This document shows, in pieces, positions 41,131 to 61,433 of a stretch of 64,000 nt of DNA. The position numbers and the translations under genes were made by a program. Below the pieces are notes generated by a model. That model saw only the letters and a list, made by a program, of their open reading frames with translations, searched no databases and had not been told where the DNA came from. Origin of the DNA: Rhodocyclales bacterium. GTDB taxonomy: Bacteria; Pseudomonadota; Gammaproteobacteria; Burkholderiales; Rhodocyclaceae. The stretch spans positions 124,001 to 188,000 of the forward strand of contig JACRLX010000002.1 of the NCBI GenBank assembly GCA_016235165.1, given 5' to 3'. How positions within the stretch are numbered: the stretch's first letter is position 1; each line of letters starts with the position of its first letter.

Positions 41131-41280
41131 GGTTTCGGTACTCACGACACTCGCCCCCGCATTGCCTTGCTCCGATGGCATCCGCGATCCGGAAACCGCC
41201 GTGTCGCCAGCGCCGACTTTCTCCCCTGGCCGTTTCGATGGGTGACCATCGGAATCGGGCCTAAGGTAGCATCGCGGTCC

Positions 41281-45185: not shown

Positions 45186-46266
45186 TCTCCGCTCCGCCTC
45201 CAAGGAACTGGAATACGGATACGCGACTGTTAAGCGTATCTGCCACGAACACGCGGTTGCGACCATCGACCCAGGCCGCCGACGGCAGATGAAACTGCCC
45301 CGGCTCGCTGCCGACACCACCGATCGCCATCAGGTAATTCCCCCGGCGGTCAAATACCAATAGATGGTCGTAATACGATTCCACGACATACAAATTGCCT
45401 TCCCCGTCAACGGCAACGCCCTTCGGGCGCACCATGTTGCCGACGTACATGCCTAGCGCTCCTACCGTAGCAAGATGCGCGCCGGTCTTGGAAGACAGCA
45501 CCTGAACCCGCGCGTTCATCGTATCGGCAACGTACAGCTTGCCACCGTGCACCGCAAGATAGGTGGGGTAATTGAACTCGCCCGGTCCGTCCCCCCGCGC
45601 CCCCCAGACATCGAGCAGATTTCCGTCCGGGTCGAACAGCTTGATCTGGTGGTCCGCCGTATCCACAACAAATATCCGCTGGGTTTCCTGTTCATAGGCG
45701 ATGCCGGTCGGCCGTGTCAGGTGACCGCGACCGATCGGACCGACGGAATCGCCCTTGGCATTCAGGCGGGCAACCAGGGCCAGCTCACTGTCGGTAACCA
45801 GTACCACGCCATTTTGGCCAATCGCGACACCGACCGGGCTGACGAATTTGCGGCCTCCATCTGCCTGCTGCCAGGTCTCAAGAGTCGCGCCGCGCTCGTC
45901 GAAAACGAATACCGAAGCATTCCCCCGATCAGCCACAAGGATTCGCCCCGCGCCATCGACCGCCCCTGCCTGAGGCCGGTATATCTCCCTGGGCGGCTCC
46001 TCGCCCTTGATGAACTCAAGGAACCTGGCCACATAGTCAAGCGGACCGGTGCGACGGGATTCGGGATCATCAATGTTACGGTCGCCGTACAGATGCCCCA
46101 GGTAAAGATATCTAGGAACTTCCCCATCGTCCTCGTTGGGGAAAACCAGGCGCTTGGCGTGCGTGGCATCGACATCCAGGGTGAACACCGGCTTCTCGCC
46201 AACGCCTGCACATCCCGCAAGCCCAAGGACGAGCAATACCGCCAGGAAGAGTGACTTGGTATCCAT
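45178..46266 (-). CDS. NHL-repeat beta-propeller lipoprotein
   Basis: The 362-residue product has a lipobox (LAVLLVLGLAGC) and NHL blades: GAGRILVADRGNASVFVFD, VSPVGVAIGQNGVVLVTDS, RPTGIAYEQETQRIFVVDT, NYPTYLAVHGGKLYVADT, RPKGVAVDGEGNLYVVES and HLPSAAWVDGRNRVFVADT, six in total. No haem. Start overlaps the previous stop (TGATG). Pairing with an OmcE-like cytochrome gene recurs at 55182-57186. NHL propellers bind proteins or ligands, so assembly or docking of the cytochrome is inferred. Confidence 0.9.
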   Translation of the reverse strand: MDTKSLFLAVLLVLGLAGCAGVGEKPVFTLDVDATHAKRLVFPNEDDGEVPRYLYLGHLYGDRNIDDPESRRTGPLDYVARFLEFIKGEEPPREIYRPQAGAVDGAGRILVADRGNASVFVFDERGATLETWQQADGGRKFVSPVGVAIGQNGVVLVTDSELALVARLNAKGDSVGPIGRGHLTRPTGIAYEQETQRIFVVDTADHQIKLFDPDGNLLDVWGARGDGPGEFNYPTYLAVHGGKLYVADTMNARVQVLSSKTGAHLATVGALGMYVGNMVRPKGVAVDGEGNLYVVESYYDHLLVFDRRGNYLMAIGGVGSEPGQFHLPSAAWVDGRNRVFVADTLNSRVSVFQFLGGGAENE

Positions 46267-47213
46267 CAGGGCAGGCGGCGCTGAATTCGAAACACGGAAA
46301 TAAAGCGTTTGGCTGGATCGGCGACATGCATGATGCCATTGGAAACGAAAATCTGCTGCGGTGAAACCAGGTCGAGTTGTACCGGAAACATGGTCTCCAG
46401 CCCTCCCTCGTTGACTCTCGATATGCTGCGATCGAAGGCGTCCAGCAGGTAGATTTCCCCGCGATCGACAACGAGATCGACGGCTTGCCGAAGCGACCCG
46501 CGACTCAGACGACGAACCAGCTTACCGTCACGGAACTCATTTACGCAGGCGCACCGGTTGTCGGCCAGCAGCACGGCACCATCATGCAAGGCGACCGGAC
46601 CGGCGGCATCGATTTCCAGGATATCAAGCGCGATCCGCCCGCCCGGCTCGATACGGTCAATCACCCTGTGTACGATATCGACGGCATACACCCGACCCGT
46701 GGCCCCCTCGACCACGAAATCGAGGTAGCGGCTGGTCGGCAGGCGCGCATGCAAGGCAGGCAAGCTGACTCCATGCAAGGACAGACGACGGATCTCGGCA
46801 CCCAAGGGATCCAGCACGTGCAGCGTACCGTCCTGTCCGGCTCGCAGCCTGGTGCCCGATGCGATCCTTAGCCCGGGAACGGCGGCCATCAATCCCGTGC
46901 CGCGCTCAAGCCGAAATACCCTCCCGTAGCCCGCATCGGCGATGAACAAGCTTCCCAGGACCGTTACCACGCCTTCCGGCGCGAGGAACGATAACGATGT
47001 TTCGTTGCCGCCAGGGAGCGGCATGCCGGTCGGATCGATCCTGTCGGTAAGCACCCCGCCGGAAAAGCCATGGAGTGGCTCAAGCCATGTCGTCGCTTCC
47101 TTTTTATGGCGTACCGCGTCACCACAAGCGGCCGCGGCAAGTCCCGCAACCAGCGCCATGGCGCGTCGGACAAAACGCCGGCGACTACCAGCGACCAGGG
47201 CCACCGGTCTCAT
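46266..47213 (-). CDS. Second propeller-like lipoprotein
   Basis: The 315-residue product has a lipobox-like AMALVAGLAAAAC after an Arg-rich n-region and blades with divergent NHL pattern: FLAPEGVVTVLGSLFIADAG, LHVLDPLGAEIRRLSLHG, DFVVEGATGRVYAVDIVH, VDLVVDRGEIYLLDAFDR and VSPQQIFVSNGIMHVADPA. ATG 47213 overlaps the trihaem gene upstream by 29 bases. Position next to the NHL lipoprotein suggests a paired scaffold. Less regular than its neighbour, so propeller assignment is moderate. Confidence 0.78.
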   Translation of the reverse strand: MRPVALVAGSRRRFVRRAMALVAGLAAAACGDAVRHKKEATTWLEPLHGFSGGVLTDRIDPTGMPLPGGNETSLSFLAPEGVVTVLGSLFIADAGYGRVFRLERGTGLMAAVPGLRIASGTRLRAGQDGTLHVLDPLGAEIRRLSLHGVSLPALHARLPTSRYLDFVVEGATGRVYAVDIVHRVIDRIEPGGRIALDILEIDAAGPVALHDGAVLLADNRCACVNEFRDGKLVRRLSRGSLRQAVDLVVDRGEIYLLDAFDRSISRVNEGGLETMFPVQLDLVSPQQIFVSNGIMHVADPAKRFISVFRIQRRLP

Positions 47214-47565
47214 GTCCGCCAAAAATTCCGGTAGGCAAGCCGCGCTTGCCCGAATGGCACAGATCGCATCGATCCGGTGCCCATGCGATATCGCCGTTGT
47301 GGCAGGCACCGCAAAACCGCCCCTCGACGATGTCCGCCATCTTGAAGTCATTGCTGCCAACGCGCATCTTGAAACCGAGCTCGGCGTGACATACCTTGCA
47401 ACGGAAGCGTATCCGATGAAACCAGTGAGGGAATATTACGGGCCGCACGCCTTCTTTTTCCGCGCGCCGGTTCAGCACTACGTCAGCATACTCGGCCACC
47501 GCCTGGGGGACGCATAGACCGATCAGCGCCAAGGCCACCAACCAGCCGGAGACAAGATGTCGCAT
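47185..47565 (-). CDS. Small trihaem cytochrome, c7-like (type A)
   Basis: The 126-residue exported protein has CKVCH, CGACH and CDLCH, preceded by distal His residues in FPHWFHRIRF. It is a close relative of 50037-50447, sharing FPHWFHR, FRCKVCHA and CGACHNG. Signal peptide SGWLVALALIGLCVPQAVA. ATG overlaps the upstream TGA (TGATG). Periplasmic electron carrier to the outer-membrane complex is inferred. Confidence 0.92.
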   Translation of the reverse strand: MRHLVSGWLVALALIGLCVPQAVAEYADVVLNRRAEKEGVRPVIFPHWFHRIRFRCKVCHAELGFKMRVGSNDFKMADIVEGRFCGACHNGDIAWAPDRCDLCHSGKRGLPTGIFGGHETGGPGRW

Positions 47566-48149
47566 CACTTGGGAGGAACCGCCCCCGCCGGAATGGCGAT
47601 CGGCAGCGATGGCTTGGGCGCCTGGCCGGGCCGCGCCACGCTATGGCAGCGAAAACACTCCGTCAACGGGAAGGAAACGGCGCCATGGCAAACACCGCAC
47701 TGCTCTCCTTCGAGAATTTTCAGCATGGAAAACTTCGTGGCGCCGGTTTCCGCCTTGAACAGATGGTCGTGGCAATTCACGCAATCCAGCCACAAGGTGT
47801 GTTGCCGGTGAGGGAAACGGACAATCGGCATGCCCCCCTTCAGGTTCAGCAACACATCGGAATCGTAGACCCTGATCTTCGTGTCTGGCCGAATGCTCGC
47901 CCGTGGGTTGATTTCCCCTTTCTCCAAAGCCTGAACCCACCTGACCATGTTGCCGGCGGTATCCGGTATCAGCTTCGAGAGGGCCGCGGCCGGTTCCTGC
48001 AACTGCTTGATCGCCGGGCTGCGCGGATCGTGGATGCCGTCCTTGTTCAGCGGCGTCCAGTCCTCGGCCAATGTCACCGAACCCAGGCAAATGAGGCAGG
48101 CGGCTATTGCCGCCCGCAGGGAATCAGCCGGGAATATAAATACCCGCAT
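47565..48149 (-). CDS. Trihaem cytochrome, c7-like (type B)
   Basis: The 194-residue exported protein has CVNCH, CGVCH and CFRCH in its C-terminal half with distal His in FPHRQHTLWLDCVNCH, the same type as 19087-19761 and the C-terminal part of 49034-50026. The N-terminal half (DWTPLNKDGIHDPRSPAIKQ) has no haem motif. ATG 48149 overlaps the upstream coiled-coil gene by 26 bases. Periplasmic carrier, paired with the type A gene that follows. Confidence 0.92.
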   Translation of the reverse strand: MRVFIFPADSLRAAIAACLICLGSVTLAEDWTPLNKDGIHDPRSPAIKQLQEPAAALSKLIPDTAGNMVRWVQALEKGEINPRASIRPDTKIRVYDSDVLLNLKGGMPIVRFPHRQHTLWLDCVNCHDHLFKAETGATKFSMLKILEGEQCGVCHGAVSFPLTECFRCHSVARPGQAPKPSLPIAIPAGAVPPK

Positions 48150-49020
48150 TCCGGATGGCGCGGACCAACTCCGAAGTGGATTCCTCGAGCAGCTTGACTG
48201 CCTCGTCGTAAGCCTTGCGAGTGGCCGCCTCGTCGGCCTTCTGCCGCAAGACCTGCCCCTTCGAAAGATAGGACTGAATCATGTCTCCACTGGCTTTCTT
48301 GTCATCGACAAGAACTTTGATCAACATCTGGTGGGTATTGTTCCGGTCGATTTCGTAGTGATATTCCTCTTCCTTGCTGGCAAAGTTCAAGGAACGAACC
48401 AGGGTATCACCACTGCGCAACGTGGTCAGGCCGGCCTTGGCGACAAGGTATCCCCGATCGATCTCGGCCTTGGCATCGCCAAACTTTCGCTGCTTGGCCA
48501 TTTCACCGGAAGCGGCGATCGATTTTTCAATTTGCGCCACGGTGTCATTGAGCCCTTTCGCCGATTTCTCGCCGGAGACTCTCTTGTAGGCACCGAGCAG
48601 GGCTTGCACGCTCTCAAGTCGCAGCAGGTAATCGTTCTCGAGCTTTTTCGCGGTTACTTCTTCCGGAGCGGCAAATCGCACCGCGTCGAAGAAGGCCGAA
48701 CGGGACTCGGCCAACAAGGCCGAGGCCTTTTCGAGATTATCCTGCTCCAACGCCTGGCGCGCCGCGCGGTATAGTTCGCGCGCCTTTTCGCGCCGCTGCA
48801 TGGCTTCCGGTGCCTTGCTGGAGTCGATCTGCCTCGCGGCCGATGAGGTTTCGAGAAGCTTGCCAACCGATTCAATGTTGAACGTCAGTTGCGATTTGTC
48901 GATCTTGTTTCCCGCCAAACGGGACGCAGCGCTTTCGGTTGCCGAACCTTGCGGTGGCGTCTGGGCAAATGCCACGCCACAGGCCAAAAGAAAGAAAACT
49001 GATTGGTACGACTTTTTCAT
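48124..49020 (-). CDS. Periplasmic helical/coiled-coil protein, unknown
   Basis: The 298-residue product has a signal peptide (SYQSVFFLLACGVAFAQ) and an almost wholly helical mature part rich in Ala, Glu and Lys, with TPR-like pieces (RREKARELYRAARQALEQDN, LEKASALLAESRSAFFDAVR). No haem or enzyme motif. It lies inside the cytochrome operon between two trihaem genes, 13 bases after one and overlapping the next. A periplasmic spacer or chaperone for cytochromes is inferred. Confidence 0.75.
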   Translation of the reverse strand: MKKSYQSVFFLLACGVAFAQTPPQGSATESAASRLAGNKIDKSQLTFNIESVGKLLETSSAARQIDSSKAPEAMQRREKARELYRAARQALEQDNLEKASALLAESRSAFFDAVRFAAPEEVTAKKLENDYLLRLESVQALLGAYKRVSGEKSAKGLNDTVAQIEKSIAASGEMAKQRKFGDAKAEIDRGYLVAKAGLTTLRSGDTLVRSLNFASKEEEYHYEIDRNNTHQMLIKVLVDDKKASGDMIQSYLSKGQVLRQKADEAATRKAYDEAVKLLEESTSELVRAIRNAGIYIPG

Positions 49021-49033
49021 TGCGTCACCCCTG

Positions 49034-50026
49034 TTACTTTGCCGCCGCGGTGGCGGCCTGGACCGGACGAACGTCCTTCTTCTTCGAATGGCAGAGCCTG
49101 CATTCCGAGACCGGAAACGCCACCTTTCCGTGGCAGACCCCACACTTCTCGCCGAGCAGGATTGCAGCCATGCTGATCGCATTGGCACCTTTTTGCGGAA
49201 CAAAAATGCCAGGGTGGCAATTCGAGCAGTCAAGCCACTCCGTGTGTTGCTTATGTGGGTAAACCACGTCAGGCATGGAACCCTTGACCTCGCGAACAAT
49301 GTTCAGGTCAATGACCACCGGCGTGGCATTCGGATCGTTGCGATCCCAGCGCGGATTGATCTTGTGCTCCTCGATGGCCTTCACCCAGTTGATGCGATTG
49401 CCGGCCAGGCTCTTGGGCAATGGGCCGTAAGCCGCGAGAGGCGCCATGAGCGCCAGGGTGCCATCATTGGCAGGGTCGTGAATGCCGTCTTCGACGGGTG
49501 GCGGATTGCGTTTGCCAACCGGCTTGAGCAGACGATTGAAGGAGTTGATGTCGGCCGCCGATGCCCCGGAGGTGTTCGAGGATACATCGACCGGACGCGC
49601 TGGCTGCGCTGCCGGCGGCTCGGCCGAAGCAGCGGTCGTGGCAGCAGGCGCAGCGGGCACCGAAGCAGTGGCCGGCTTTGCGGCAGCGCTGGCCGGCTTT
49701 GCCACGGCAGGCGCCGTCTTGACCGCAGCCAGCATGTAATCCACTGCTGCCCTCACATCCGCGTCGGGTGCGTCGAGGTTTCCACCTTTCGGTGGCATTC
49801 CCTTTGCCGTGCCTTTCAGTGCGCTGGCATACAGTTTGGCGACACCACCCGCCATGCGCGGCTGCCAATCTCCCGCGTTGCCATATTTGGGTGCACCGGC
49901 GATTCCGACGGCATGACATACGCCGCAGGTCTTCGTATACAAATCCTTGCCCGCATCGGCTGCCCAGGCGCCCGATACGAGCGAAAAACCGGCCAGGGAG
50001 GCGATGACAATACGTTGAATGCTCAT
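49034..50026 (-). CDS. Tetrahaem fusion: monohaem cytochrome c plus trihaem type B domain
   Basis: The 330-residue exported protein joins a class I cytochrome (KTCGVCHAVGIAGAP, with MPPKGGNLDAPDADVRAAVD) to an Ala/Pro-rich linker (~105-150) and a C-terminal trihaem domain with CSNCH, CGVCH and CRLCH. AGGAGG lies 4-9 bases before ATG 50026. The N-terminal domain resembles the separate protein at 57329-57703, and the C-terminal domain that at 47565-48149. It follows the type A trihaem gene by 10 bases. Confidence 0.92.
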   Translation of the reverse strand: MSIQRIVIASLAGFSLVSGAWAADAGKDLYTKTCGVCHAVGIAGAPKYGNAGDWQPRMAGGVAKLYASALKGTAKGMPPKGGNLDAPDADVRAAVDYMLAAVKTAPAVAKPASAAAKPATASVPAAPAATTAASAEPPAAQPARPVDVSSNTSGASAADINSFNRLLKPVGKRNPPPVEDGIHDPANDGTLALMAPLAAYGPLPKSLAGNRINWVKAIEEHKINPRWDRNDPNATPVVIDLNIVREVKGSMPDVVYPHKQHTEWLDCSNCHPGIFVPQKGANAISMAAILLGEKCGVCHGKVAFPVSECRLCHSKKKDVRPVQAATAAAK

Positions 50027-50036
50027 GGTCACCTCC

Positions 50037-50447
50037 TCACTTCTTCTGCAGCGTCGCCGGAGCGAGCTTCTGGACAGTACTTTCGTGAACCTGTGTCGAT
50101 GTACCCGGTTTCGCCGAGTGACACAGATTGCAGTTTTCGACGGACCACGCCAGTTCCCCGTTGTGGCACGCACCGCAATACTGTCCATCGATGATCTTTA
50201 CCATGTTTATCTCATTGCCACCTGCCTTGAACTTGAACCCAAGGTCTGCATGGCAAACCTTGCAGCGAAAGCGGACGCGGTGAAACCAATGCGGGAAAAT
50301 GGCCGGGCGCATCCCCGCCGCATCCGAATAGTTGTTGATCACGATGTCGCCATACTCGGCGCGAGCCTCATCGATCTGTACGGTCGATCCGATCGCAAGC
50401 CCGATCACAGCCAGCAACAATCGCTGCCAAAGGTATTTACGAAACAT
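50037..50447 (-). CDS. Small trihaem cytochrome, c7-like (type A)
   Basis: The 136-residue exported protein has CKVCH, CGACH and CNLCH, with His in FPHWFHRVRF. Signal peptide LWQRLLLAVIGLAIGSTVQ. Its sequence is close to 47185-47565, indicating gene duplication. AAAGG precedes ATG 50447. First of nine tightly packed genes ending with the 11-haem cytochrome. Confidence 0.92.
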   Translation of the reverse strand: MFRKYLWQRLLLAVIGLAIGSTVQIDEARAEYGDIVINNYSDAAGMRPAIFPHWFHRVRFRCKVCHADLGFKFKAGGNEINMVKIIDGQYCGACHNGELAWSVENCNLCHSAKPGTSTQVHESTVQKLAPATLQKK

Positions 50448-50500
50448 GGTTTTCCTTTACACCTGAACGATTCCGCATTCTATCTGCGCAAAAAAACTGC

Positions 50501-52792
50501 TTACCAGCGGCCATCGAAAAAGCCGTCGAACTCTCTCGTAACCGAGCCAAACAAGGAAGCACTTTTCCTGCCAGATTGATCGATCCAGGAGTGACTCAAG
50601 CGAAACACCAAGCGACCCAGGCGATAGTCGACCAATTGTTGCAGGGAGGTACTGCCATTGTCGGTGGCAAATCCCGTTCCACCGGCCACATTCTGGTTGC
50701 TGAAGCTCTGCTGGCGCGAAAGTGAACCGCTGTAATTCAGGTTCCTTACTGAAAACGGGCTTTGATGAGAATACCCCAGAGAAAAGCTGCCGGCCATCAC
50801 CGGAGCGTTGGAGTTGACGGTGACCCCGTTAAGAATCTGGTTGGTCGTGTTGTTGATGACGCTCTGCGTCCAGCTCAAATTTGAATTCACCGTCACGGCT
50901 GCCCTGGACGAAATCTGGTAGGCCGCTCCGCCCATTAAATTCACCGACTTGAACTGGTTGCGCCCGCCGACGCCGTCGGACGCGGTAACTATCAGGTTCG
51001 CACTCAGGTTGGCCGTAAGTTTTTCGCCATAGGCGGCACGAAATGCCGCACCGACATTGTTGCCGAAACTAGTCGTCGGCCCAAGGGTAGCCGTCGTCCG
51101 CGTCAGATTTTGTCCGGCAGAAAGATTGATCGATGCCATCTCACTCAAGACGAACGAACGCGCGAGATTGTGGTTGGCCGTTAGGTTGGTTCCAATTTCA
51201 TTGCTTCCGTTGCTGGAGGCACTGCGGGATAAGCCTCCTCCCGTTCCCCACCCATACACCCAGCCGGAAATCGTAAGTGGATCGCCCGCGTAAGAAATGC
51301 TGCCGTTCTGAAGATTCGTTACGCTGCGCGTGCCAGCGTTCTGAATCGAGGTAACCGAAACATTGCCCGCAGCCGAAAGATTGTTGTTGAAGCGGTAGTT
51401 CGTCGCAACAAATCCACCAAGGTTGCTCAAGTCATTGCTCGTGCTGTTATTGCTGGTCTGGGTCTTGGAAAAATTTCCGCCACCCGTCAATGTCAGGGGC
51501 AAATCTTCAAAAGGTCGCCAGGTGAAGGCGCTTGATCCGAGGAGGACGGATGCCGCGTTTTGTGTCAGGGCATTGCCCTGGTACATGTTTGCCTGCGTCC
51601 TGGCAAAAGTGAATAGGTTGCTGATGTTGAGGTCTTCATGGACATTCCAGCCATGATTGACATTGATAGACACCTGTTTCGAATCCTGGGCAGAAGTCCC
51701 GCCGCCGATCGTTGTCGTCGGGTCGGTAGCCGCATTCGATCCGCTGAAGCTTGCATTGAAGTTATGGTTTCCTTCAAGCAGATGCTCGAAGGGGAACTCG
51801 CGCGTCGTGGTGAAGGTACCGCCCACGTTTGTGATCGCGCTTTTCACGCTTGAGGTCGTCAACCCGCTGGTAATCCCGTTGCGGCTGAAATTGAGCGCGT
51901 AATTGTCCCGCCCGTCTTCGGTGCGATAGCTTTGACGGGCGCCAAATGCGGTCGACGTCGAGGGGCTGATGATTTCCGCGGATCGACTCTGGGACGTTGC
52001 CGTGGAAAGATTCGCGCTGAAGGGAAAGCGGCTCTGGGGAAAGACATCGACACTCCCCCCCAGGTTGAAGGATGAACTGTCGCTTTTGCCAGCCGCCCCC
52101 GTAGTCGGAGTAAATTTCGACCCCGTCGAACTGGCGCCCAGCAACCCTGACCACTGGGCAATGTATGGGGCAACGATGAAGCTGTTTGCCTGAATATTCA
52201 AATTATTGAATATCGTTAGGCTCTTACCACCGTCGCTCGCCTGGAACTGATTTCCGCTGGTCGTGGTATTTCCGGCCCACCGAATGGGCGCCAACTGCCA
52301 GCTCTCGCCACTCAGATCCGGGAGACCAGCAGAGTCAGCCTTGCCTTTTGTTACCACCGAGCGATTGTCGCGCCCTGCGGGAACCCGCGATGCCTGACCC
52401 GCCGGCGACGGATCATAGGGAACAGGATCTTCGGGGTCGAACGGCTGGTTCGCGATACCCTCGATTAACGCGTGATGTTCGGTCGCGACTAGTACCGGAA
52501 CATCATTTACCGGCGATTTCCTCACCTGCTGCCCAAGCGCAAAATCCAACCTGAGTGGCAGATCCAACGATACTGCCGTGGGTGCCTGAATGTCCTCGAC
52601 CCGCGAAACTGCGGCCGCACCCAACCCGATTGACAGCTTCAGGACCAGCGGGCCGGAACCCGCCACGCCTACGCCGGATGGCGTTGAACTCAGCTCACTT
52701 GAAATAGCCGACTCACTGCAAACGGCTCCCAGCCCTCCCAGAAGCAGACAAACATACCGCTTGCGCCGGAAAGTTTGGCTACCATTCCTCAC
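50501..52792 (-). CDS. Large outer-membrane beta-barrel protein (conduit porin candidate)
   Basis: The 763-residue product has an N-terminal signal-like segment (RKRYVCLLLGGLGAVCSESA), a non-barrel region to about residue 170, then alternating polar/hydrophobic strands rich in Ser, Asn, Thr and Gly up to an aromatic C terminus (FDGFFDGRW). This is typical of outer-membrane barrels of porin-cytochrome conduits such as MtrB/OmbB-type proteins. No sequence identity with a named family is claimed. GTG 52792 chosen; no good ribosome site. Flanked by a PpiC isomerase and periplasmic cytochromes. Confidence 0.8.
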   Translation of the reverse strand: MRNGSQTFRRKRYVCLLLGGLGAVCSESAISSELSSTPSGVGVAGSGPLVLKLSIGLGAAAVSRVEDIQAPTAVSLDLPLRLDFALGQQVRKSPVNDVPVLVATEHHALIEGIANQPFDPEDPVPYDPSPAGQASRVPAGRDNRSVVTKGKADSAGLPDLSGESWQLAPIRWAGNTTTSGNQFQASDGGKSLTIFNNLNIQANSFIVAPYIAQWSGLLGASSTGSKFTPTTGAAGKSDSSSFNLGGSVDVFPQSRFPFSANLSTATSQSRSAEIISPSTSTAFGARQSYRTEDGRDNYALNFSRNGITSGLTTSSVKSAITNVGGTFTTTREFPFEHLLEGNHNFNASFSGSNAATDPTTTIGGGTSAQDSKQVSINVNHGWNVHEDLNISNLFTFARTQANMYQGNALTQNAASVLLGSSAFTWRPFEDLPLTLTGGGNFSKTQTSNNSTSNDLSNLGGFVATNYRFNNNLSAAGNVSVTSIQNAGTRSVTNLQNGSISYAGDPLTISGWVYGWGTGGGLSRSASSNGSNEIGTNLTANHNLARSFVLSEMASINLSAGQNLTRTTATLGPTTSFGNNVGAAFRAAYGEKLTANLSANLIVTASDGVGGRNQFKSVNLMGGAAYQISSRAAVTVNSNLSWTQSVINNTTNQILNGVTVNSNAPVMAGSFSLGYSHQSPFSVRNLNYSGSLSRQQSFSNQNVAGGTGFATDNGSTSLQQLVDYRLGRLVFRLSHSWIDQSGRKSASLFGSVTREFDGFFDGRW

Positions 52793-52839
52793 GTTGCATG
52801 CATGAATCTGGCTGGAACATCTGGCGATCGCCGCCCAGC

Positions 52840-53877
52840 CTACTTCCCAGCTTTGGCTTCGCCCTGCGCCACGCTGTTGTCGAGTAGAACGATTTTCGCT
52901 TCCGCGCGCAGCTTGGCAATAAGATCGTTCCATGCCTTGTCCTGCCGATCACGCAACAACAGGTCACGCGCACGACCCGCAACGTTCTCGAACGGCTGTA
53001 GTTTGGGCGAAATACGCTCGTCCAGCCGAAAGACTCCTACCCCCTGCAACATCTCGATGGGATCGGCGACTTCACCAAGCTTGAAGCCATCAATCTTGCT
53101 TTGCAGGCTTTCAGGCATCATTCCCTGATGCAGGTAACCCAGATCGCCGCCATTGTCCGCGCTGGGATCCCTTGAAAACAATCTCGCCTGCTCCGCGAAA
53201 CTCGCACCGCCACGAATCCGTCTGACGATCGCCTCTCCTTCGCGTAGCGCAGCATCCCATGCTGCGCGCGGCGACGAAGGATCGACTGCAAGCAGGATCG
53301 TGTGCAACCTCAATTTGGCTGGTTCCGTAAATAGCTCGGGCTTGGAGCCATAGTGAGCTTTGACCTCATCGACTGTCGGCTCAGGGACTTTCTTCACAGC
53401 TTGCTCAAGCCGTACCTGCTGACTCTGCTGATCAAGCTGTTCCTTCAACCCGGGGAGCAGAGACTCACGATTTTTCTGCCAAACCGGACTGGTCGCATAG
53501 CGTTGCTCATATGCCGAGATACGCTTCTCGACATCCTCGGCGTCAGGCTTGATGCCGCGACGATCTATCTCTTCGTGATACAGAATCCGGTTTATCAGTT
53601 GATCCGTCACATCCTTCCGCGCCTGATCGAGCTGATCCTGCGGAACCTGGCCATGGTAGAACTTCTGACGCAAGTAGGCCGAATATGCAGCATGGAAGTC
53701 GTTCTGCGTGATTGGCTTGCCATTGACCGTCGCGAAGAGCGGCACACTGGCCACTTGCGAGCCAACCTTCACGTCCGCATGCGCAGCACTCGATTGCTGC
53801 GCATGCAAACCAGAAGCAAACGATAAACCCAAGCCTGCAAGTACCCACAAAGCGCGCATCCGCAGACTGGTTGCCAT
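52840..53877 (-). CDS. PpiC/SurA-type periplasmic prolyl isomerase
   Basis: The 345-residue product has a signal peptide (WVLAGLGLSFASGLHAQ), SurA N-terminal helices (QKFYHGQVPQDQLDQARKD, LINRILYHEEIDRRGI) and one parvulin domain (~190-290) with LRLHTILLAV, SFAEQARLFSRDPSADNGGD and LGYLHQGMMPESL. It should help fold the barrel next to it or secreted cytochromes. Starts at ATG 53877, after the terminator that follows the tetrahaem gene. Confidence 0.92.
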   Translation of the reverse strand: MATSLRMRALWVLAGLGLSFASGLHAQQSSAAHADVKVGSQVASVPLFATVNGKPITQNDFHAAYSAYLRQKFYHGQVPQDQLDQARKDVTDQLINRILYHEEIDRRGIKPDAEDVEKRISAYEQRYATSPVWQKNRESLLPGLKEQLDQQSQQVRLEQAVKKVPEPTVDEVKAHYGSKPELFTEPAKLRLHTILLAVDPSSPRAAWDAALREGEAIVRRIRGGASFAEQARLFSRDPSADNGGDLGYLHQGMMPESLQSKIDGFKLGEVADPIEMLQGVGVFRLDERISPKLQPFENVAGRARDLLLRDRQDKAWNDLIAKLRAEAKIVLLDNSVAQGEAKAGK

Positions 53878-53971
53878 GTATCACCTTTCCTGTTGAACCT
53901 GACTCGCTTTCCAGACGGCTCGCAAAATCAGCGAGCTGCTTGAAGCGAAATCCAAAATTGACTATACAAGA

Positions 53972-54003
53972 AAAAAGCCCCTCAGTTTCCCTTGGGGCTT
54001 TTG
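53972..54003 (-). terminator. Rho-independent terminator after the OmcE-like gene
   Basis: On the minus strand AAAAGCCCC pairs with GGGGCTTTT around a 12-base loop, followed by a run of T. It lies 64 bases past the tetrahaem stop and would make a short abundant transcript for that gene, with partial read-through to the isomerase and barrel genes. Confidence 0.85.
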
Positions 54004-54066
54004 ATCGTGCGAGTGTTGCTTAGTTCGCTCGCAACGGCGTCGGCGTGCCGCCGAAGGCCGCCTCGA

Positions 54067-54930
54067 TCACTTGACGTGACAGGACAGACAGATCGCCGAA
54101 CCCGCAGTCGTTACCCGCATGAACATGATGTTGTCGCTACCCTTGCTTTCCACATGTGGATCATGACAGGAGCCGCACTCAACCGACGGACCGGTCACGT
54201 CCGAGCGAGTGTAAAGCGACAGGTCGGTTTTCTGGCGAGTCGTATCAACCGTGCCAGTTTCCACCCAGAAAACCTGAGAGCTGCCGGACGCCTTGGTGAG
54301 CACGACAGCGCCCGAAAAATGGGAGTCTGCCCGGGTGCTCGCCCCAATGAAATCAGCATCCTTACACGTTCCACTCACCGTGGTGCCACTACCAGACAAA
54401 CCGCCACCGCAGTACTGAATGCCGATCGGATGGTCGTTCGTCAGGTCCGTACCGAGGACGGGGATCGGGGTCCCGGCCATGGTCGCCGCTCCGGTCCAAG
54501 TACCGCCAATCGAAGCGCCGGCCGCGCTGTACAGACCACTTCCAGGACGGTTCAACGCATTGTCCATGGCCTGCGTGCCGTCATGACAGGACAGGCAGGC
54601 AAGGGAAACCGAACCCACGTTGGCCGCGATCGTCCCATCGATGGACGATGTCGCACTGGCCGCCACCGAGTTGTAAACCTGATAGCTGTTGCCGGCCGGA
54701 AGGTTCTTGTTCCACAAAGGAACGGCAGCCGACGTATCTGAACCGTGCGGCGTATGGCAGAAAACACAAATCTGGTCGGTACCCGTGGTGTGATTGGGAC
54801 CGCTACCCGACGATGAAAGATTGTGCTTGGTAGCTGCAATACCCGTAGCAGCAGCTAAGACAGCACCCGAAATCATTGCCAAAGCCAACCCACCCACCCA
54901 GCGAGTCAGACTGGAACCCATTACCCTCAT
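54067..54930 (-). CDS. OmcE-like tetrahaem cytochrome (nanowire subunit candidate)
   Basis: The 287-residue exported protein has haem sites CVFCH (55-59), CLSCH (112-116), CGSCH (252-256) and CLSCH (281-285, five residues from... the C terminus being HVK). Its layout follows the OmcE family: TKHNLSSSG, ICVFCHTPHGSDT, PLWNKN, ACLSCHDGT, NRPGSG, LTNDHPIG, CHDPH and a C-terminal SAICLSCH. Distal His candidates at 36, 62, 167 and 259 are all present, giving four bis-His haems. Cys174 and Cys189 lie in an insertion and may form a disulfide. GGAGG precedes ATG 54930. OmcE polymerises into extracellular filaments in Geobacter; polymerisation here is inferred. Confidence 0.9.
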   Translation of the reverse strand: MRVMGSSLTRWVGGLALAMISGAVLAAATGIAATKHNLSSSGSGPNHTTGTDQICVFCHTPHGSDTSAAVPLWNKNLPAGNSYQVYNSVAASATSSIDGTIAANVGSVSLACLSCHDGTQAMDNALNRPGSGLYSAAGASIGGTWTGAATMAGTPIPVLGTDLTNDHPIGIQYCGGGLSGSGTTVSGTCKDADFIGASTRADSHFSGAVVLTKASGSSQVFWVETGTVDTTRQKTDLSLYTRSDVTGPSVECGSCHDPHVESKGSDNIMFMRVTTAGSAICLSCHVK

Positions 54931-54995
54931 GATGACCTCCGTTTTAGTTGGTGCCGCAAGTTCAAAACAAGCCCAAACCTTTACGCCCAACATCA

Positions 54996-55011
54996 AGCAC
55001 CAAACATGCCA
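54996..55011 (-). promoter_or_regulatory. Sigma-54-like promoter before the OmcE-like gene
   Basis: The minus strand reads TGGCATGTTTGGTGCT, with GG and GC exactly 10 bases apart; TGGCA matches the -24 element and TGCT the -12. Start of transcription would fall near 54985, about 55 bases before the ATG. The element is within the 251-base gap 54931-55181, which contains no gene. Confidence 0.5.
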
Positions 55012-55181
55012 CCAGAGAAAAACAAACCCAACATTGATACACACCCGAAAAACAAACTTTTATTCATAGAGTTGCACTAACTCACCGCTCATGATCGAGG
55101 CTAACTAAGGCCATACACCCAGGTAATTCCTAAATTCAAGAATGCATTTCTCGGAATCAGAAACGACAGAAAAGTTCGAGT

Positions 55182-56318
55182 CTAAAGCTTCGGCTTTCCG
55201 GGTAAGGCGGTCGGCGACTTCCTGCCAAGAAAGCCCTCCTTCTCCGCCAACCCATGCGGACGGAAAATATCGATACGCGCAAACCATTGATCAACGAAGT
55301 AAATCCGCCCATCTTCATCTACCGCCACGCCTGAAGGCAGCATGTATCCGGCTGGCTGGTCCTGTTCAGAGCGCTCACCAATGAACATCAGCAGGTCGCC
55401 ATCAGCGTTGAAGATCTGGATGTTGCCAAAGGCTGTGTCCGCCACATACACGTTTCCCTGCCGATCGGTGGCGATCTCCTTGGGGCGCGCAAAGTTTCCA
55501 AGTTGTTTGCCCACGGTGCCAAAAGTCTTGAGGAACTTTCCATTCCTGTCGAAAATCTGGACACGAAAATTGCCGCCATCAACCACATAAACGCGCCCGT
55601 CTTTGCCCAAGGCAACATCGCGCGGCAAATTAAACTCGCCATCTCCGGAACCGCGTTTGCCTATGTCCATGACATGAGCTCCGGTCACGCCATTGAACAC
55701 TCGCACCATGTGCTTGTCCGAACTGACACCGCCGATATCCACCACGTAAATTCTCTCACCGGCTTCATCCACGGTTACGCTCGACAGGCGCTCAAAAAAC
55801 TTTGGGCCACCAATCTTGCGCAAATACTTGCCCCCCTTGTCGAAAACCAGAATCTGTTTCTGCGTGGCATCCGCAACATACAGATTGCCCATGCTATCGA
55901 CATCGATGCCCAATGGCTTGACTATCCTGCCGTCTCCGTCATCGTCGCCAACCGTGTAGTAGCTCTGCCCTGGTACATCGAAGACCTTGATCTTGCGCCC
56001 AACCGTATCCGAGACAAAGAGCCTGCCCTGATAGACCGCTATCGAATAAGGCTTGGTCAGCGCCTCCCCCGACACACCCGAAACGCCGGTAAGGGCTCGT
56101 TTCAGGGCCGATTCGTCGGCCTCGGGGACTACATCGGCACTGCTGCGTATCGCGCGCTCGAACACAAAGCGCGGCTCATCCGGTGGCGCCGGGAAAACCA
56201 GGGTTCGCGTCGAGCGGCCAACCTGCTCGAGATCGCGCTTTGCGACCGTGACGCAACCGCCGGTGGCCGCTATTCCCGCCACCAAGATCAGACTGAATAC
56301 CAACCGCATTTGATTCAT
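55182..56318 (-). CDS. NHL-repeat beta-propeller lipoprotein
   Basis: The 378-residue product has a lipoprotein-type signal (LVFSLILVAGIAATGGC) and NHL blades: KPYSIAVYQGRLFVSDT, KPLGIDVDSMGNLYVADA, LSSVTVDEAGERIYVVD, LPRDVALGKDGRVYVVDG, RPKEIATDRQGNVYVADT and LPSGVAVDEDGRIYFVDQ, making six. ATG 56318 has AAGG upstream. It sits between two OmcE-like tetrahaem genes, repeating the propeller-cytochrome pairing seen at 42519-46266. Probably outer-membrane anchored; role in docking or assembly inferred. Confidence 0.9.
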   Translation of the reverse strand: MNQMRLVFSLILVAGIAATGGCVTVAKRDLEQVGRSTRTLVFPAPPDEPRFVFERAIRSSADVVPEADESALKRALTGVSGVSGEALTKPYSIAVYQGRLFVSDTVGRKIKVFDVPGQSYYTVGDDDGDGRIVKPLGIDVDSMGNLYVADATQKQILVFDKGGKYLRKIGGPKFFERLSSVTVDEAGERIYVVDIGGVSSDKHMVRVFNGVTGAHVMDIGKRGSGDGEFNLPRDVALGKDGRVYVVDGGNFRVQIFDRNGKFLKTFGTVGKQLGNFARPKEIATDRQGNVYVADTAFGNIQIFNADGDLLMFIGERSEQDQPAGYMLPSGVAVDEDGRIYFVDQWFARIDIFRPHGLAEKEGFLGRKSPTALPGKPKL

Positions 56319-56400
56319 ACCCTTGCCCCTTTCGTCCGGATAGGCAACACCGGCTTCTCTCCCAAACATATCCCGCAACCGCCGAAGTTCCATAGTGCCA

Positions 56401-57186
56401 TTATTTACTGTGGCATGTGAGACACAGCTGACTCCCGGCGGGAGACACCCGCAGAAAGGTTTCCGTACTCGCATGCGGATCGTGGCAGCTGCTGCATTCG
56501 ATATGTGGCAACATGAAGCCGGCGCCGAGGCCCGATTCGGCAGAGATGCGTCCATAAAGTGGCAAGTCATTACGTGTGCGACGCGACGTGACTCCGCTGC
56601 GAGAAACCCAGAACACCTCCCGCCCCTCGACCATGCCCTGGCTCACATCGCGAAAATCATCCAGAGCGACCAGATGCTGGGCCTCGCGGAAAGGTGTGCT
56701 GGCATCCCTTGGCGTGGTTACGATGCGATCCTGATGAAGCTGGTTTTTGGTTGCACCACGATAGGCAACTCCAAAGGGATGGTCGGCCGACGTGCGGCCA
56801 ACGCCGAATGCCTGAATTGAATCATGACAGGAAAGGCAGGCAATCGACTGAGAACCCACCGCGGGCTTGCCCAAACCCAGGCGACCAATGTCGTCGTAAA
56901 TCGTGAAGACGAAATCGACGCCCAAGGACTTTTGCCAAAGCGGCCTGGCGGCTACCGTCTTCCCTTCGGGAATTTCACCGACCTCGATGATGGGGGTATG
57001 ACAAAACACACACACCTGTTTCTCATCGACGTTCTTGTCCCGAGAACGAATCAGATTGTGCTTGGTTTCCCGAACATCGGCGAATACGGACTGCCCGGCA
57101 ATAGCCAGAAAAAATACGAGGGCCGCCAAAATCGGCATGGCGACACGCCTCCGAACAACCGTATGGGAGCCCCCAGGCAAATTCAT
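56401..57186 (-). CDS. Second OmcE-like tetrahaem cytochrome, altered distal ligand
   Basis: The 261-residue exported protein has CVFCH (59-63), CLSCH (117-121), CSSCH (231-235) and CLTCH (255-259), and shares with 54067-54930 the segments TKHNL, CVFCHTP, ACLSCHD, DHPFG, VFWV, CHDPH and CLTCH at the C terminus. The usual TPHG after haem 1 reads TPII, so one distal His is missing at its expected place; His170 or others might substitute. ATG 57186 has GAGG upstream. A specialised or regulatory filament subunit is possible. Confidence 0.88.
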   Translation of the reverse strand: MNLPGGSHTVVRRRVAMPILAALVFFLAIAGQSVFADVRETKHNLIRSRDKNVDEKQVCVFCHTPIIEVGEIPEGKTVAARPLWQKSLGVDFVFTIYDDIGRLGLGKPAVGSQSIACLSCHDSIQAFGVGRTSADHPFGVAYRGATKNQLHQDRIVTTPRDASTPFREAQHLVALDDFRDVSQGMVEGREVFWVSRSGVTSRRTRNDLPLYGRISAESGLGAGFMLPHIECSSCHDPHASTETFLRVSPAGSQLCLTCHSK

Positions 57187-57328
57187 CGTACCTCGGGCAG
57201 CGAAGGACGCGGAAGCCCCTGGACGCCACAAAACCAGCCCCAAGGAACTTCTATTGCCGAAAGTCAAACCCCTGCTTCCCAAAGCGATCACCATACACGC
57301 CAAGGCATATTCATCCCAATCGGCATAT

Positions 57329-57703
57329 CTAATTGCCGGCGATATGAGTTTCACGCTCCCCCTGCATGATCCTCGAAACCATATAGTCTAATGCGGCAAC
57401 TGCCTGGGCGTCGGAAATGGATGCGTTGCCACCTTTGGGTGGCATGCCGCCTTTTCCGCGAAGCACCGAGATTTGCAGTGCTCGTCGCCCGGAAACCAGA
57501 CGCCCCTCCCAATCGGCACGATTATCCATTCGAGGCGCCATGCCCAGGCCACTTACGTGACAAAGCGCGCAATTCTGCAAAAATACCTCTCGCCCGGAGA
57601 TCCTGTCGTCGGCAACCGCAACACCCTCCATGGGAACGCGCGAAACCATCCACAGCACCAGTGGCAAAAGCACGAGCAGGAAACGGGCAAGAGGGGCTTT
57701 CAT
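57329..57703 (-). CDS. Monohaem cytochrome c (c5-like)
   Basis: The 124-residue exported protein has NCALCHVSGLGMAPR and the Met-ligand region MPPKGGNASISDAQ, like the N-terminal domain of 49034-50026. Signal peptide LARFLLVLLPLVLWMVS. First gene of the minus-strand set 57703-55182, with a divergent sigma-54-like promoter upstream. Periplasmic carrier. Confidence 0.9.
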   Translation of the reverse strand: MKAPLARFLLVLLPLVLWMVSRVPMEGVAVADDRISGREVFLQNCALCHVSGLGMAPRMDNRADWEGRLVSGRRALQISVLRGKGGMPPKGGNASISDAQAVAALDYMVSRIMQGERETHIAGN

Positions 57704-57751
57704 CGCGCGACTTTGCAAGTAACGATGTCTTAAATAAATCGATTGAGGATT

Positions 57752-57770
57752 AAAGCAACAATCAGACCAA
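57752..57770 (-). promoter_or_regulatory. Sigma-54-like promoter before the monohaem/tetrahaem-2 genes
   Basis: The minus strand reads TTGGTCTGATTGTTGCTTT; GG and GC are exactly 10 bases apart, and the -12 part TTGCT matches consensus, while -24 is TTGGTC. It would transcribe 57703 leftwards with about a 35-base leader. Confidence 0.45.
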
Positions 57771-57794
57771 CGGTTCGCAGGCGCGATCCCTGCT

Positions 57795-57810
57795 TGGCGC
57801 TTGCCCTGCA
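57795..57810 (+). promoter_or_regulatory. Sigma-54-like promoter before the trihaem cytochrome
   Basis: The plus strand reads TGGCGCTTGCCCTGCA, with GG-N10-GC spacing and good -24 (TGGCGC) and -12 (TGCA) elements. It lies 62 bases before ATG 57872, divergent from the promoter at 57752-57770. Confidence 0.5.
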
Positions 57811-57871
57811 AGCTGAATTGGCTCTACCATGCGGTTGCTCCGCATCCACCCTCGGGAACGACATTTCGCCC

Positions 57872-58948
57872 ATGATTGACTTCAGAAAATCATTACTTTC
57901 GCTCGCCACCCTCCTGATCGTCGCTGTATCGCTCTCGTCTGCCCCTGCAACCGCCGGCAAACACGACGCTAAAGGCCCCGAATCCAAACCCGACGCCCTG
58001 TACCACAACTATTGCTCGGTTTGTCATGGCGATCGCGGCGATGGGCGCAGCCGAGCCCGTAACAGTCTGGTGCCGCCCCCCCGTGACTTCACCACGGCGG
58101 GCGAACTTACCCGCGAGGCGATGATCACGATCATCACCCATGGCAAACCCGGTACCGCAATGGTGGGTTGGAAAACCCAACTCAGCACCGCTGAAATCGA
58201 AAGCCTGACGGACTACATACGCAAGACATTCATGATTGTCGCCCTCGATCCGAAATTGCAGCGCGGCAAATCCTTGTACACCCAGAACTGCATCGCCTGT
58301 CATGGCACGCAAGGACAGGGCAGCAACCTCCCCATTGGCGGATCGGTTCCCGCACGCGACCTCGCCTCACCCCAGGCTCGAGCGGAACTGAACCGGGAAC
58401 GCATGATCAATTCCGTTACCGTCGGCCGGCCGGGCACGGCCATGGCCGGATTCGGCGGACGCTTGCCTGCCGCCGACATCGAAGCGGTCGTCGACTATGT
58501 CCGGGCAGCCATCATGGTTCCACAAACTGACATTTCCGGCACCAACGCCCACGCCGGGCGTGCCGCTCCGCCCGGCAGCAAGCCGGTACCCGCTGCGTCT
58601 GCCGCCGGCGCCGACATGGCGCAACCGATGCCAAATTCGCTGAAGGGCAACTCGGCAGCGGGCGAACGCTTCTATCTCGCCAATTGCGCAACCTGTCACG
58701 GGGCAAAAGGTGACGGCAAGGGGCCTCGCGCCTATTTCATCAACCCCAAGCCTCGCAACTTCCTCGATCCAGCGTTTACCACAGGCTTTAACCGGCCAGC
58801 GATATATGCTGCGACGGCGATGGGACGGCAGGGATCGGAAATGCCTGCCTGGAGCAAGGTCCTGAGCGATCAGGAAATCGCCAACGTGGCCGAGTTTGTA
58901 TTCCAGCGTTTCGTCCAGCCCAGGCAGAAGGCAACAAAGTCAAAGTAA
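57872..58948 (+). CDS. Trihaem c-type cytochrome (three class I domains)
   Basis: The 358-residue exported protein has three class I haem domains: YCSVCHGDRGDG, NCIACHGTQGQG and NCATCHGAKGDG, each followed by a Met-containing segment (GTAMVGW, GTAMAGFGG, GSEMPAWSK). Signal peptide SLATLLIVAVSLSSAPATA. ATG 57872 follows a sigma-54-like promoter. First of a plus-strand set with 58960 and following genes. Domain repetition suggests internal duplication; a periplasmic electron relay is likely. Confidence 0.9.
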   Translation: MIDFRKSLLSLATLLIVAVSLSSAPATAGKHDAKGPESKPDALYHNYCSVCHGDRGDGRSRARNSLVPPPRDFTTAGELTREAMITIITHGKPGTAMVGWKTQLSTAEIESLTDYIRKTFMIVALDPKLQRGKSLYTQNCIACHGTQGQGSNLPIGGSVPARDLASPQARAELNRERMINSVTVGRPGTAMAGFGGRLPAADIEAVVDYVRAAIMVPQTDISGTNAHAGRAAPPGSKPVPAASAAGADMAQPMPNSLKGNSAAGERFYLANCATCHGAKGDGKGPRAYFINPKPRNFLDPAFTTGFNRPAIYAATAMGRQGSEMPAWSKVLSDQEIANVAEFVFQRFVQPRQKATKSK

Positions 58949-58959
58949 GCGACGGCCCC

Positions 58960-59958
58960 ATGCGCGTCCGTTTGCTGGCCGTATTGGCGTATGCGTTGAT
59001 CGAAGTCCTGCCAGTCGGTGCATTCGCCTCCACCAAGGGGCCGGATGGCAGGGCGATATACAACTTCCGCTGTTATTTTTGCCACGGCTATTCGGGCAAT
59101 GCCAAAACCGTTGCTTCAAGTTTCCTGATCCCGCCGCCTGCGGATTTCACCCGCGCCTCGCCAAACGATCTGACGGTGTCGAAGATCGAGGAAGCCCTGC
59201 GTCATGGCAGGCCGGGAACCGCCATGAAATCCTTTGCCTCGATTATCGACGAGGCTGAAATCAAGGCTGTCGCTGCGTTCGTGCACGACGAATTCGTGGT
59301 TCGCAAGGCCGTCAATACGCGATATCACACCCCTGAAAACGGATGGCCGGACCACCAGCGCCACGCCGCCGCATTTCCCTTCGCCACTGGCGAAATTGGT
59401 TTGGACCAGCCCTGGGAGTCGCTTACTCCGGAGCAGGCGCGCGGCAGGCGGCTGTTCATGGAAACCTGCATAACCTGCCATGATCGCGGCACGAAGGATC
59501 ACCAAGATATCGCCTGGGACAGTCGGCCGGTATCCTTCCCACGCAACAATTTTTCCTTCACCGTGCCGCCAACGCCGGACATGCTGGCGAGCGCCAGCCC
59601 ATATGCGATGCACGACGTTCGTCCCCGGGCGAAGGGACTCAGCCGCTCCGAACGCCGCGGGGAAAAGCTCTTTCAGGCGAATTGCGCCTTTTGCCACGCC
59701 GCCGACGGAACCGGCAAGAACTGGATCGGCAGCTTCCTCGAACCCCACCCACGCAACCTTCGCGATCCGGCAATCATGTCCGGCATGAGCAGGCAACGCT
59801 TCATTCAGGCCGTGGGCGAAGGCTTGGCCAATACCTCCATGCCAGCGTGGAAGCAAGTACTCAAATCTGGAGAGATTTCGGACATTGCGGACTATGTAAG
59901 CCGGGTTTTCCATCCGCTGTCGAAAAGCCAGGGCAAGGCAGTCGGCACACAGGACTGA
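58960..59958 (+). CDS. Trihaem c-type cytochrome
   Basis: The 332-residue exported protein has CYFCHGYSGNA, TCITCHDRGTKD and NCAFCHAADGTGK, with Met ligand candidates in GTAMKSF and NTSMPAWKQ. It resembles its upstream neighbour, but the middle domain is longer and diverged. Starts 11 bases after the previous stop, so co-transcribed. Confidence 0.9.
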   Translation: MRVRLLAVLAYALIEVLPVGAFASTKGPDGRAIYNFRCYFCHGYSGNAKTVASSFLIPPPADFTRASPNDLTVSKIEEALRHGRPGTAMKSFASIIDEAEIKAVAAFVHDEFVVRKAVNTRYHTPENGWPDHQRHAAAFPFATGEIGLDQPWESLTPEQARGRRLFMETCITCHDRGTKDHQDIAWDSRPVSFPRNNFSFTVPPTPDMLASASPYAMHDVRPRAKGLSRSERRGEKLFQANCAFCHAADGTGKNWIGSFLEPHPRNLRDPAIMSGMSRQRFIQAVGEGLANTSMPAWKQVLKSGEISDIADYVSRVFHPLSKSQGKAVGTQD

Positions 59959-59963
59959 TCACC

Positions 59964-60758: not shown

Positions 60759-60795
60759 ACCGATTACGTGCCCCATAGGAACAGGAGACACTGCA

Positions 60796-61407: not shown

Positions 61408-61433
61408 GGCAACTCCGCAGGCGGCACCCGGAA

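Follow-up and report, generated by a model that had tools for sequence, protein, structure and literature searches.

A gene block encoding an OmcE-type tetrahaem cytochrome and a predicted outer-membrane barrel in a Rhodocyclales bacterium: a candidate biogenesis locus for an extracellular cytochrome filament

The 64,000-nt contig stretch from a Rhodocyclales bacterium analyzed here (the window, whose positions give all coordinates below unless a contig is named) contains a co-oriented block of 14 genes on the minus strand, at 42519-57703. In the order of transcription, these are CYTC, OMCE2, NHL_C, OMCE1, PPIC, BARREL, small trihaem 1, CYT_TRI, COIL, TRI, small trihaem 2, NHL_B, NHL_A, and MHC11; several of their start codons are unsure. 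The original prediction, made from the sequence alone, had envisioned an OmcE-like cytochrome nanowire locus around two tetrahaem genes at 54067-54930 and 56401-57186, which we term OMCE1 and OMCE2. Both coordinate pairs are right, and the strand, which was left unstated, is minus; the plus-strand translations of both genes are interrupted by stops. A 28-strand barrel, an 11-haem cytochrome with an OmcE-like head, and c7 cytochromes were absent from that prediction and are added here.

OMCE1 (54067..54930, minus strand), the candidate filament subunit, opens with an ATG at 54930 after CGGAGG. It encodes 287 aa with four CXXCH haem sites and, by eye, a signal-like N terminus; the mature part is ~261 aa. 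All the OmcE segments listed previously (TKHNLS, CVFCHTPHG, PLWN, CLSCHDGT, NDHPI, CHDPH, and a C-terminal CLSCH) are present in its translation. As a single protein, OMCE1 matched OmcE (Protein Data Bank [PDB] entry 7tfs) with a phmmer E-value of 7.6e-30 and entry 9yuq with 1e-20. OMCE2 matched 7tfs at 6.8e-14, and at these values the resemblance of both tetrahaems to OmcE is not due to chance. A genome scan yielded 212 stretches encoding relatives; the locus counts given below refer to the best 80 of these 212, many of which are cut by contig ends. The OMCE1 family profile, built from 79 related loci plus the window, matched 7tfs at an E-value of 2.2e-36 (stretches 3-159 and 215-255) and 9yuq at 1.7e-33. 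Membership in the OmcE family, for which a profile match had been named as the check, is thus borne out.

Each of the four CXXCH sites has its counterpart in the alignment with 7tfs, as have the four distal His of OmcE: those in TKH, TPH, and NDH, and one located three residues past haem site 3. In OMCE1, the distal His 10, 36, 141, and 233 are invariant in the 80 rows and provide one distal ligand per haem. Specifically, the codon for the His at +3 after haem site 1 (CVFCHTPH) lies at 54745..54747 on the minus strand, and this His is found in 80/80 loci. The Cys of three haem sites are present in 80/80 rows and that of the fourth site in 79/80. An extra Cys pair occurs in 53 and 52 of the 80 rows and is not seen in the aligned stretches of 7tfs. 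Tree support for OMCE1 as a single clade was weak (62/8). We discarded a join of 7tfs and 9yuq beside the MHC11 heads, as each entry forms a long branch and lacks the middle portion, and the tree software cautions against this join. Sequence comparison thus identifies OMCE1 as a homologue of OmcE that has four haem sites and whose invariant distal His number exactly four.

OMCE2 (56401..57138 on the minus strand, with its start at 57138 or 57186) had been described as a second tetrahaem of the same type. Its four CXXCH sites and its match to OmcE, which reached 1.3e-23 with the OMCE2 profile, agree with this description, whereas its placement and ligands do not. OMCE2 proteins form one clade of 33 rows (support 100/100), and they are one distal His short. 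The first haem site reads CVFCHTPI in place of the CVFCHTPH of OMCE1 and OmcE, with the Ile codon at 56989..56991 (minus strand) occupying the position of the OMCE1 +3 His. The residue at +3 is non-His in the window and in 32/32 OMCE2 loci, whereas the His is kept in 129/129 other OmcE-like proteins (80/80 OMCE1, 38/38 MHC11 heads, and 11/11 five-haem proteins). In one OMCE2 relative (L011), a His stands one residue later, at +4. All four CXXCH sites (32 aligned rows) and three invariant distal His are retained. No further His or Met that could replace the lost ligand is common to all 32 aligned rows.

The last gene of the block, MHC11 (42519..45185, minus strand), encodes an 11-haem cytochrome with an OmcE-like N-terminal head and seven further haem sites, at ~80 residues per haem. 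A search of its own genome with OMCE1 finds it at an E-value of 2.3e-32. In the window and 12 genomes chosen for a downstream MHC11 match, the protein has 11 CXXCH sites, each conserved in 13/13, and the four distal His of the head are conserved as well. Four further complete copies (L115, L116, L117, and L119) also have 11 CXXCH sites, making 17/17 complete copies examined; the copy in L118 (genome G052) leaves its contig after seven.

Other OmcE-like proteins were encountered as well. The own genome encodes a five-haem OmcE-like protein (C37:24628-25416; L095:8629-10083) divergent from an NHL_C-like propeller gene (E-value 1.6e-75). This class occurs in 11/80 related loci, 10 of which have a second NHL_C-type match. 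Three genomes of one family, f80 (G077, G204, and G307), have at least seven OmcE-profile matches each, an expansion of OmcE-like cytochromes. At one further locus (L104), the gene for the 11-haem cytochrome is directly followed by a second OmcE-like gene (G154:C207:45400-46215).

BARREL (50501..52792, minus strand; start codon unsure, with the open reading frame [ORF] opening to 52933) encodes a predicted outer-membrane beta-barrel. Its structural model (mean predicted local distance difference test [pLDDT] score 81.7) has 28 long predicted strands and ~130 disordered N-terminal residues, and it aligned with MtrB (6r2q_B) at 3.6 Å over 260 residues. Other structural matches (root-mean-square deviation ≥9.6 Å, mostly TonB-type and general porins) were not used for naming the family. 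The MtrB_PioB family (PF11854) gave no match in the window BARREL, nor in 60 barrel members at E-values up to 1, one row of which (L075) is in a wrong reading frame. In this 60-row alignment, 11 rows were placed by position alone. A profile built from the 49 remaining rows confirmed ten of them, the eleventh being L075, which was included both in the PF11854 test and in the profile used on the class genomes.

Upstream of BARREL lies PPIC (52840..53877, minus strand; PF00639, E-value 3.7e-13), a PpiC/SurA-type peptidyl-prolyl isomerase (PPIase) with a signal-like N terminus. It is found between OMCE1 and BARREL in 12/12 genomes chosen for a downstream MHC11 match and is lacking in 3/5 further stretches picked for odd spacing. 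The propeller lipoprotein anticipated between the two tetrahaems is indeed there: NHL_C (55182..56318, minus strand), an NHL/6-bladed propeller protein with a PF01436 match (E-value 4.9e-24) and the lipobox TGGC. NHL_A (45178..46266, minus strand; lipobox LAGC) is a second such lipoprotein. NHL_B (46266..47213, minus strand; start unsure) is a putative lipoprotein, propeller-like by eye only, with no Pfam match.

The remaining genes of the block, all on the minus strand, encode mostly smaller cytochromes. The first gene, CYTC (57329..57703), specifies a small monohaem class I cytochrome. Small trihaem 1 (50037..50447) and small trihaem 2 (47185..47568) are c7-type cytochromes with three CXXCH sites and PF14522 matches, and TRI (47565..48149) is likewise a trihaem c7-type cytochrome. 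CYT_TRI (49034..50026) is a fusion of a class I cytochrome c domain with a trihaem domain of the c7 type; it has four CXXCH sites and scores 63.2 bits for TIGR04257 (cut-off 40). Thus, c7 trihaem domains occur in four block proteins, and the CXXCH counts of the block cytochromes are 1, 3, 3, 3, 4, 4, 4, and 11. COIL (48124..49020) belongs to an unknown family with no Pfam match and appears helical and secreted by eye only. Divergent from the block on the plus strand are CYT3a (57872..58948; start assigned by eye), a three-CXXCH cytochrome, and, after it, CYT3b (58960..59958), a three-CXXCH class I-type cytochrome.

The 80 loci reside mostly in Rhodocyclales, Aromatoleum/Azoarcus, Burkholderiales, and Gammaproteobacteria, and culturable carriers include Aromatoleum, Azoarcus, Dechloromonas, and Sphaerotilus strains. 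Single contigs of metagenome-assembled genomes (MAGs) labelled Nitrospirae, Nitrospinota, Magnetococcales, and Planctomycetota are also among them. We discounted the Planctomycetota host (L038): its OmcE-like protein groups with that of a betaproteobacterial MAG (100/99), and mis-binning is likely. By best-hit labels, PPIC is present in 79 of the 80 loci, NHL_C in 75, CYT3a in 68, CYT_TRI in 67, TRI in 66, CYT3b in 64, BARREL in 56 (single-sequence search), COIL and NHL_A in 54 each, MHC11 in 38, NHL_B in 36, OMCE2 in 32, and CYTC in 23. These labels include weak cross-hits among related cytochromes, and the TRI label pools small trihaem genes. By profile, BARREL is found in 74/80 loci; in the six others, the sequence stops no more than 2 kb downstream of OMCE1.

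A class sample of 369 genomes, own genome included, gave a similar linkage. Full-length OMCE1 was found in 39/369 genomes and the barrel in 40/369, with an overlap of 39; in the sole exception (G306), the contig ends just beyond PPIC. OMCE1 and the barrel share one contig and strand in 39/39 genomes, with 311-1542 bases between the matched stretches. In 30/39, the strand of OMCE1 also holds an MHC11-type match (open frame of at least 797 aa), at a distance of 7.35-9.64 kb downstream. Of the other nine genomes, five carry a frame of this kind on a different contig or at a distance of 46 kb, and there is none among the matches listed for the remaining four, one of which is the contig-cut G052. 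Judged from this gene arrangement, the barrel, the PpiC isomerase, the propeller lipoproteins, the c7-type trihaems, and the 11-haem cytochrome are genetically tied to OMCE1. Within the window's own order the block is patchy: a match at 1e-60 was obtained in only 5/150 sampled genomes, counting the own one, and the three other members of its family in that sample gave none. As for plasmid spread, no match was found in 72,556 plasmid records at an E-value of 1e-5.

In the surroundings, heptosyltransferase-family (GT9) and GT87 glycosyltransferase genes (39904-42513) border the block; excerpts from the literature describe Geobacter OmcE filaments as glycosylated. Past CYT3b, 59682-61925 on the plus strand encodes an M48 metallopeptidase, a two-CXXCH class I cytochrome, and a flavodoxin/FMN-reductase-like protein. 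The G+C content is 0.56-0.59 in 48001-60000 versus 0.62-0.67 in 24001-48000. The lower value is a possible sign of acquisition, though some of the first 24 kb is just as low. Elsewhere in the own genome (C13:95053-97908), an MtrB/PioB-family porin gene (E-value 2.5e-78) has as its neighbour an ORF of 352 aa that matches Paired_CXXCH_1 three times. The pair represents a separate Mtr-type conduit. The own genome also has three NapC/NirT-type matches. Both the MtrB/PioB-type porin and these matches are consistent with extracellular electron transfer.

Taken together, we consider it probable (about 0.62) that the block 42519-57703 serves specifically to build and charge an extracellular cytochrome filament of the OmcE type. 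OMCE1 would be exported by Sec and loaded with haem in the periplasm, and its folding may be aided by PPIC in a role like that of OscH of Geobacter, one that would be dispensable or replaced in one family. The folded subunits, or the growing chain, could then cross the outer membrane via the 28-strand BARREL, whose estimated lumen of ~41-46 Å would be similar to the width of the OmcE filament. The propeller lipoproteins may tune assembly, in an OscD-like role, while the c7 trihaem and class I cytochromes would mediate electron transfer between the base of the chain and the periplasm. MHC11 would dock at one chain end by its OmcE-like head, joining the chain to partners. OMCE2, short of one distal His, would sit at a chain end and not serve to extend the chain. 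The earlier proposal of a nanowire-type locus in a betaproteobacterial lineage is supported, so far as sequence comparison can speak to it.

Several points weigh against this interpretation. Homology is no proof of polymerization, and filament formation by OMCE1 is only predicted. The AlphaFold2 model of OMCE1, from 80 sequences, was poor (pLDDT 59.9), and a Foldseek search of the PDB with this low-confidence model returned two meaningless matches, 7tfs not among them; we weigh both as failed tests and not as counter-evidence. Barrel ORFs range, stop to stop, from 510 aa (contig-cut) to 1406 aa, so that 28 strands are perhaps not general. OMCE2 is absent from 48/80 loci, some of them cut by contig ends, and is not a general part of the block. 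PPIC is missing from the fetched stretch, with a short gap in its place and the rest of the block intact, in G206, G310, and G081 (L115, L116, and L117). With these three members of a single family lacking PPIC there, the isomerase is common but not universal, and its folding role would apply to most blocks, not all. Furthermore, excerpts of PMC11077965 present the physiological role of cytochrome filaments as disputed.

The end-subunit role of OMCE2 is a further weak point. Passages in the literature describe filaments of this type as head-to-tail polymers in which one haem takes a His ligand from the adjoining subunit. The OmcS residue matching the lost OMCE2 His, three after haem site 1, is His16, whose position was checked; we take His16 to be a ligand supplied to the neighbouring subunit. 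By analogy, OMCE2 would be unable to donate a bridging ligand and hence could sit only at a chain end. The idea is an analogy because the bridging His of OmcE rests on its OmcS counterpart: the portions of the literature texts examined do not name the bridging His of OmcE subunits, and, in the passages concerned, sources disagree on whether the OmcE haems map to the first four or to haems 3-6 of OmcS. We put forward only tentatively a nanowire with genetically dedicated, differing ends, in which MHC11 would be an 11-haem adaptor docking via the filament's own interface and OMCE2, in part of the lineages, would terminate or start the chain. If true, such dedicated ends would give a conducting protein polymer a built-in polarity and length control. 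In this context, a figure legend of the OmcZ paper leaves possible tip proteins unconsidered.

It is also conceivable, though doubtful, that OMCE2 is not an end-piece but a second filament subunit that co-polymerizes with OMCE1 and holds one five-coordinate or otherwise ligated haem. Its four CXXCH sites are kept in the 32 aligned rows, it is encoded within the same block, and the +4 His of L011 might substitute there. However, the 32 rows share no His or Met in place of the lost ligand, and the other OmcE-like classes keep the +3 His without exception (129/129).

We regard as unlikely an outer-membrane electron conduit, in which BARREL would sheathe a cluster cytochrome as in porin-cytochrome complexes like MtrAB, with OMCE1, OMCE2, and MHC11 as non-polymerizing surface or periplasmic partners. 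Such a conduit could explain the MtrB-like wide curvature of BARREL (3.6 Å over 260 residues) and the four c7 trihaem-domain proteins encoded beside it. In contrast, the haem counts of the block leave no MtrA-like decahaem, and MHC11, at its ~80 residues per haem, is unlike compact in-barrel wires. The MtrB_PioB Pfam match is absent from the window BARREL and from 60 barrel members (0/60), and the genome has a separate MtrB/PioB-type gene on C13. A conduit would also leave the PPIase and the propellers unexplained. Even less probable is that OMCE1 and OMCE2 are monomeric OmcE-family tetrahaems, either soluble shuttles or substrate-specific reductases, as may hold for OmcS paralogues: polymerization is unreadable from sequence and a single genome carries several divergent classes of OmcE-like protein, but OMCE1 retains all four distal His, a dedicated barrel is tied to it in 39/39 genomes, and the PPIase and propellers parallel osc.

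If the filament-locus interpretation is right, OmcE-type filaments would be no Geobacter speciality, with their own assembly block in ~1 in 10 sampled class genomes (39/369, own included). The culturable carriers would then be hosts in which gene removal could test the disputed filament role, and candidate end-pieces would be at hand as well.

Among known proteins, OMCE1 is closest in pattern to OmcE of Geobacter sulfurreducens (GSU0618, PDB 7tfs), with four CXXCH sites and four distal His at matching places. Both follow the motif order TKH...CVFCHTPH...PLWN...CxSCHDG...NDHP...CGSCH...CLxCH. OMCE1 differs from OmcE in its mature part of ~261 aa, in the extra Cys pair, and in its surroundings, an osc-like block that includes a dedicated barrel; its filament is only predicted. 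For OmcE-like helical filaments, PMC12954529 gives a rise near 34 Å and a pitch near 208 Å. PDB entry 9yuq, 'Putative multiheme cytochrome c' (16 chains, one sequence), has the same tetrahaem pattern as OMCE1. BARREL is like MtrB of the Mtr complex (6r2q_B) in being a very wide outer-membrane barrel. It differs from MtrB in having 28 predicted strands versus the 26 given in a passage of PMC12806980, no PF11854 match, and no decahaem partner in the block.

In Betaproteobacteria, a porin is likewise combined with multihaem cytochromes in the PCC3 clusters of iron oxidisers, but we set these clusters aside on content. The relevant parts of PMC5566968 list an inner-membrane protein and cytochromes of median 34 and 21 haems. 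A term search of the text available from that paper found no NHL, no word beginning with prolyl, and no propeller, and peptidylprolyl once, for MofB. No description of an OmcE-type block in Betaproteobacteria was found in the literature searched, whose coverage leaves out key primary papers. A related cluster may already be described in a Gallionellaceae pangenome study (PMC10734462), which contains the terms nanowire, multiheme cytochrome, NHL repeat, and peptidylprolyl isomerase. Among our own loci, L055 is a Gallionella MAG with OMCE1, NHL_C, and PPIC.

Among published systems, the closest one found is the operon of omcS companion (osc) genes in G. sulfurreducens, reportedly described by Shen et al. 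2025. OscH is presumably a prolyl isomerase and OscD propeller-like. Excerpts of PMC13194489 assign folding to OscH, secretion to OscE-G, and morphology to OscD, and PMC12977616, in part, links an eight-gene block to the maturation and secretion of the OmcS nanowire. Like osc, a block of this type would bring together a filament-type cytochrome and proteins for its folding, secretion, and morphology. The window block has a PPIase beside the cytochrome, a channel-like predicted outer-membrane component with an inferred role in secretion, and the propeller proteins NHL_C and NHL_A. The original prediction had tentatively attributed a PpiC-type isomerase and NHL-type genes to Geobacter omcE/omcS loci. 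PpiC and NHL neighbours do occur in the window, whereas the passage found on the Geobacter omcE locus names GSU0613-0614 as c-type cytochrome biogenesis genes, and the attribution fits osc. In contrast to osc, the subunit is an OmcE-type tetrahaem rather than an OmcS-type hexahaem, and there are an extra 11-haem OmcE-headed cytochrome and OMCE2. Because the kinds of parts are the same but the subunit is of the OmcE type, we would class the window block as osc-like rather than osc. What is new here is the tentative end-piece hypothesis for MHC11 and OMCE2.

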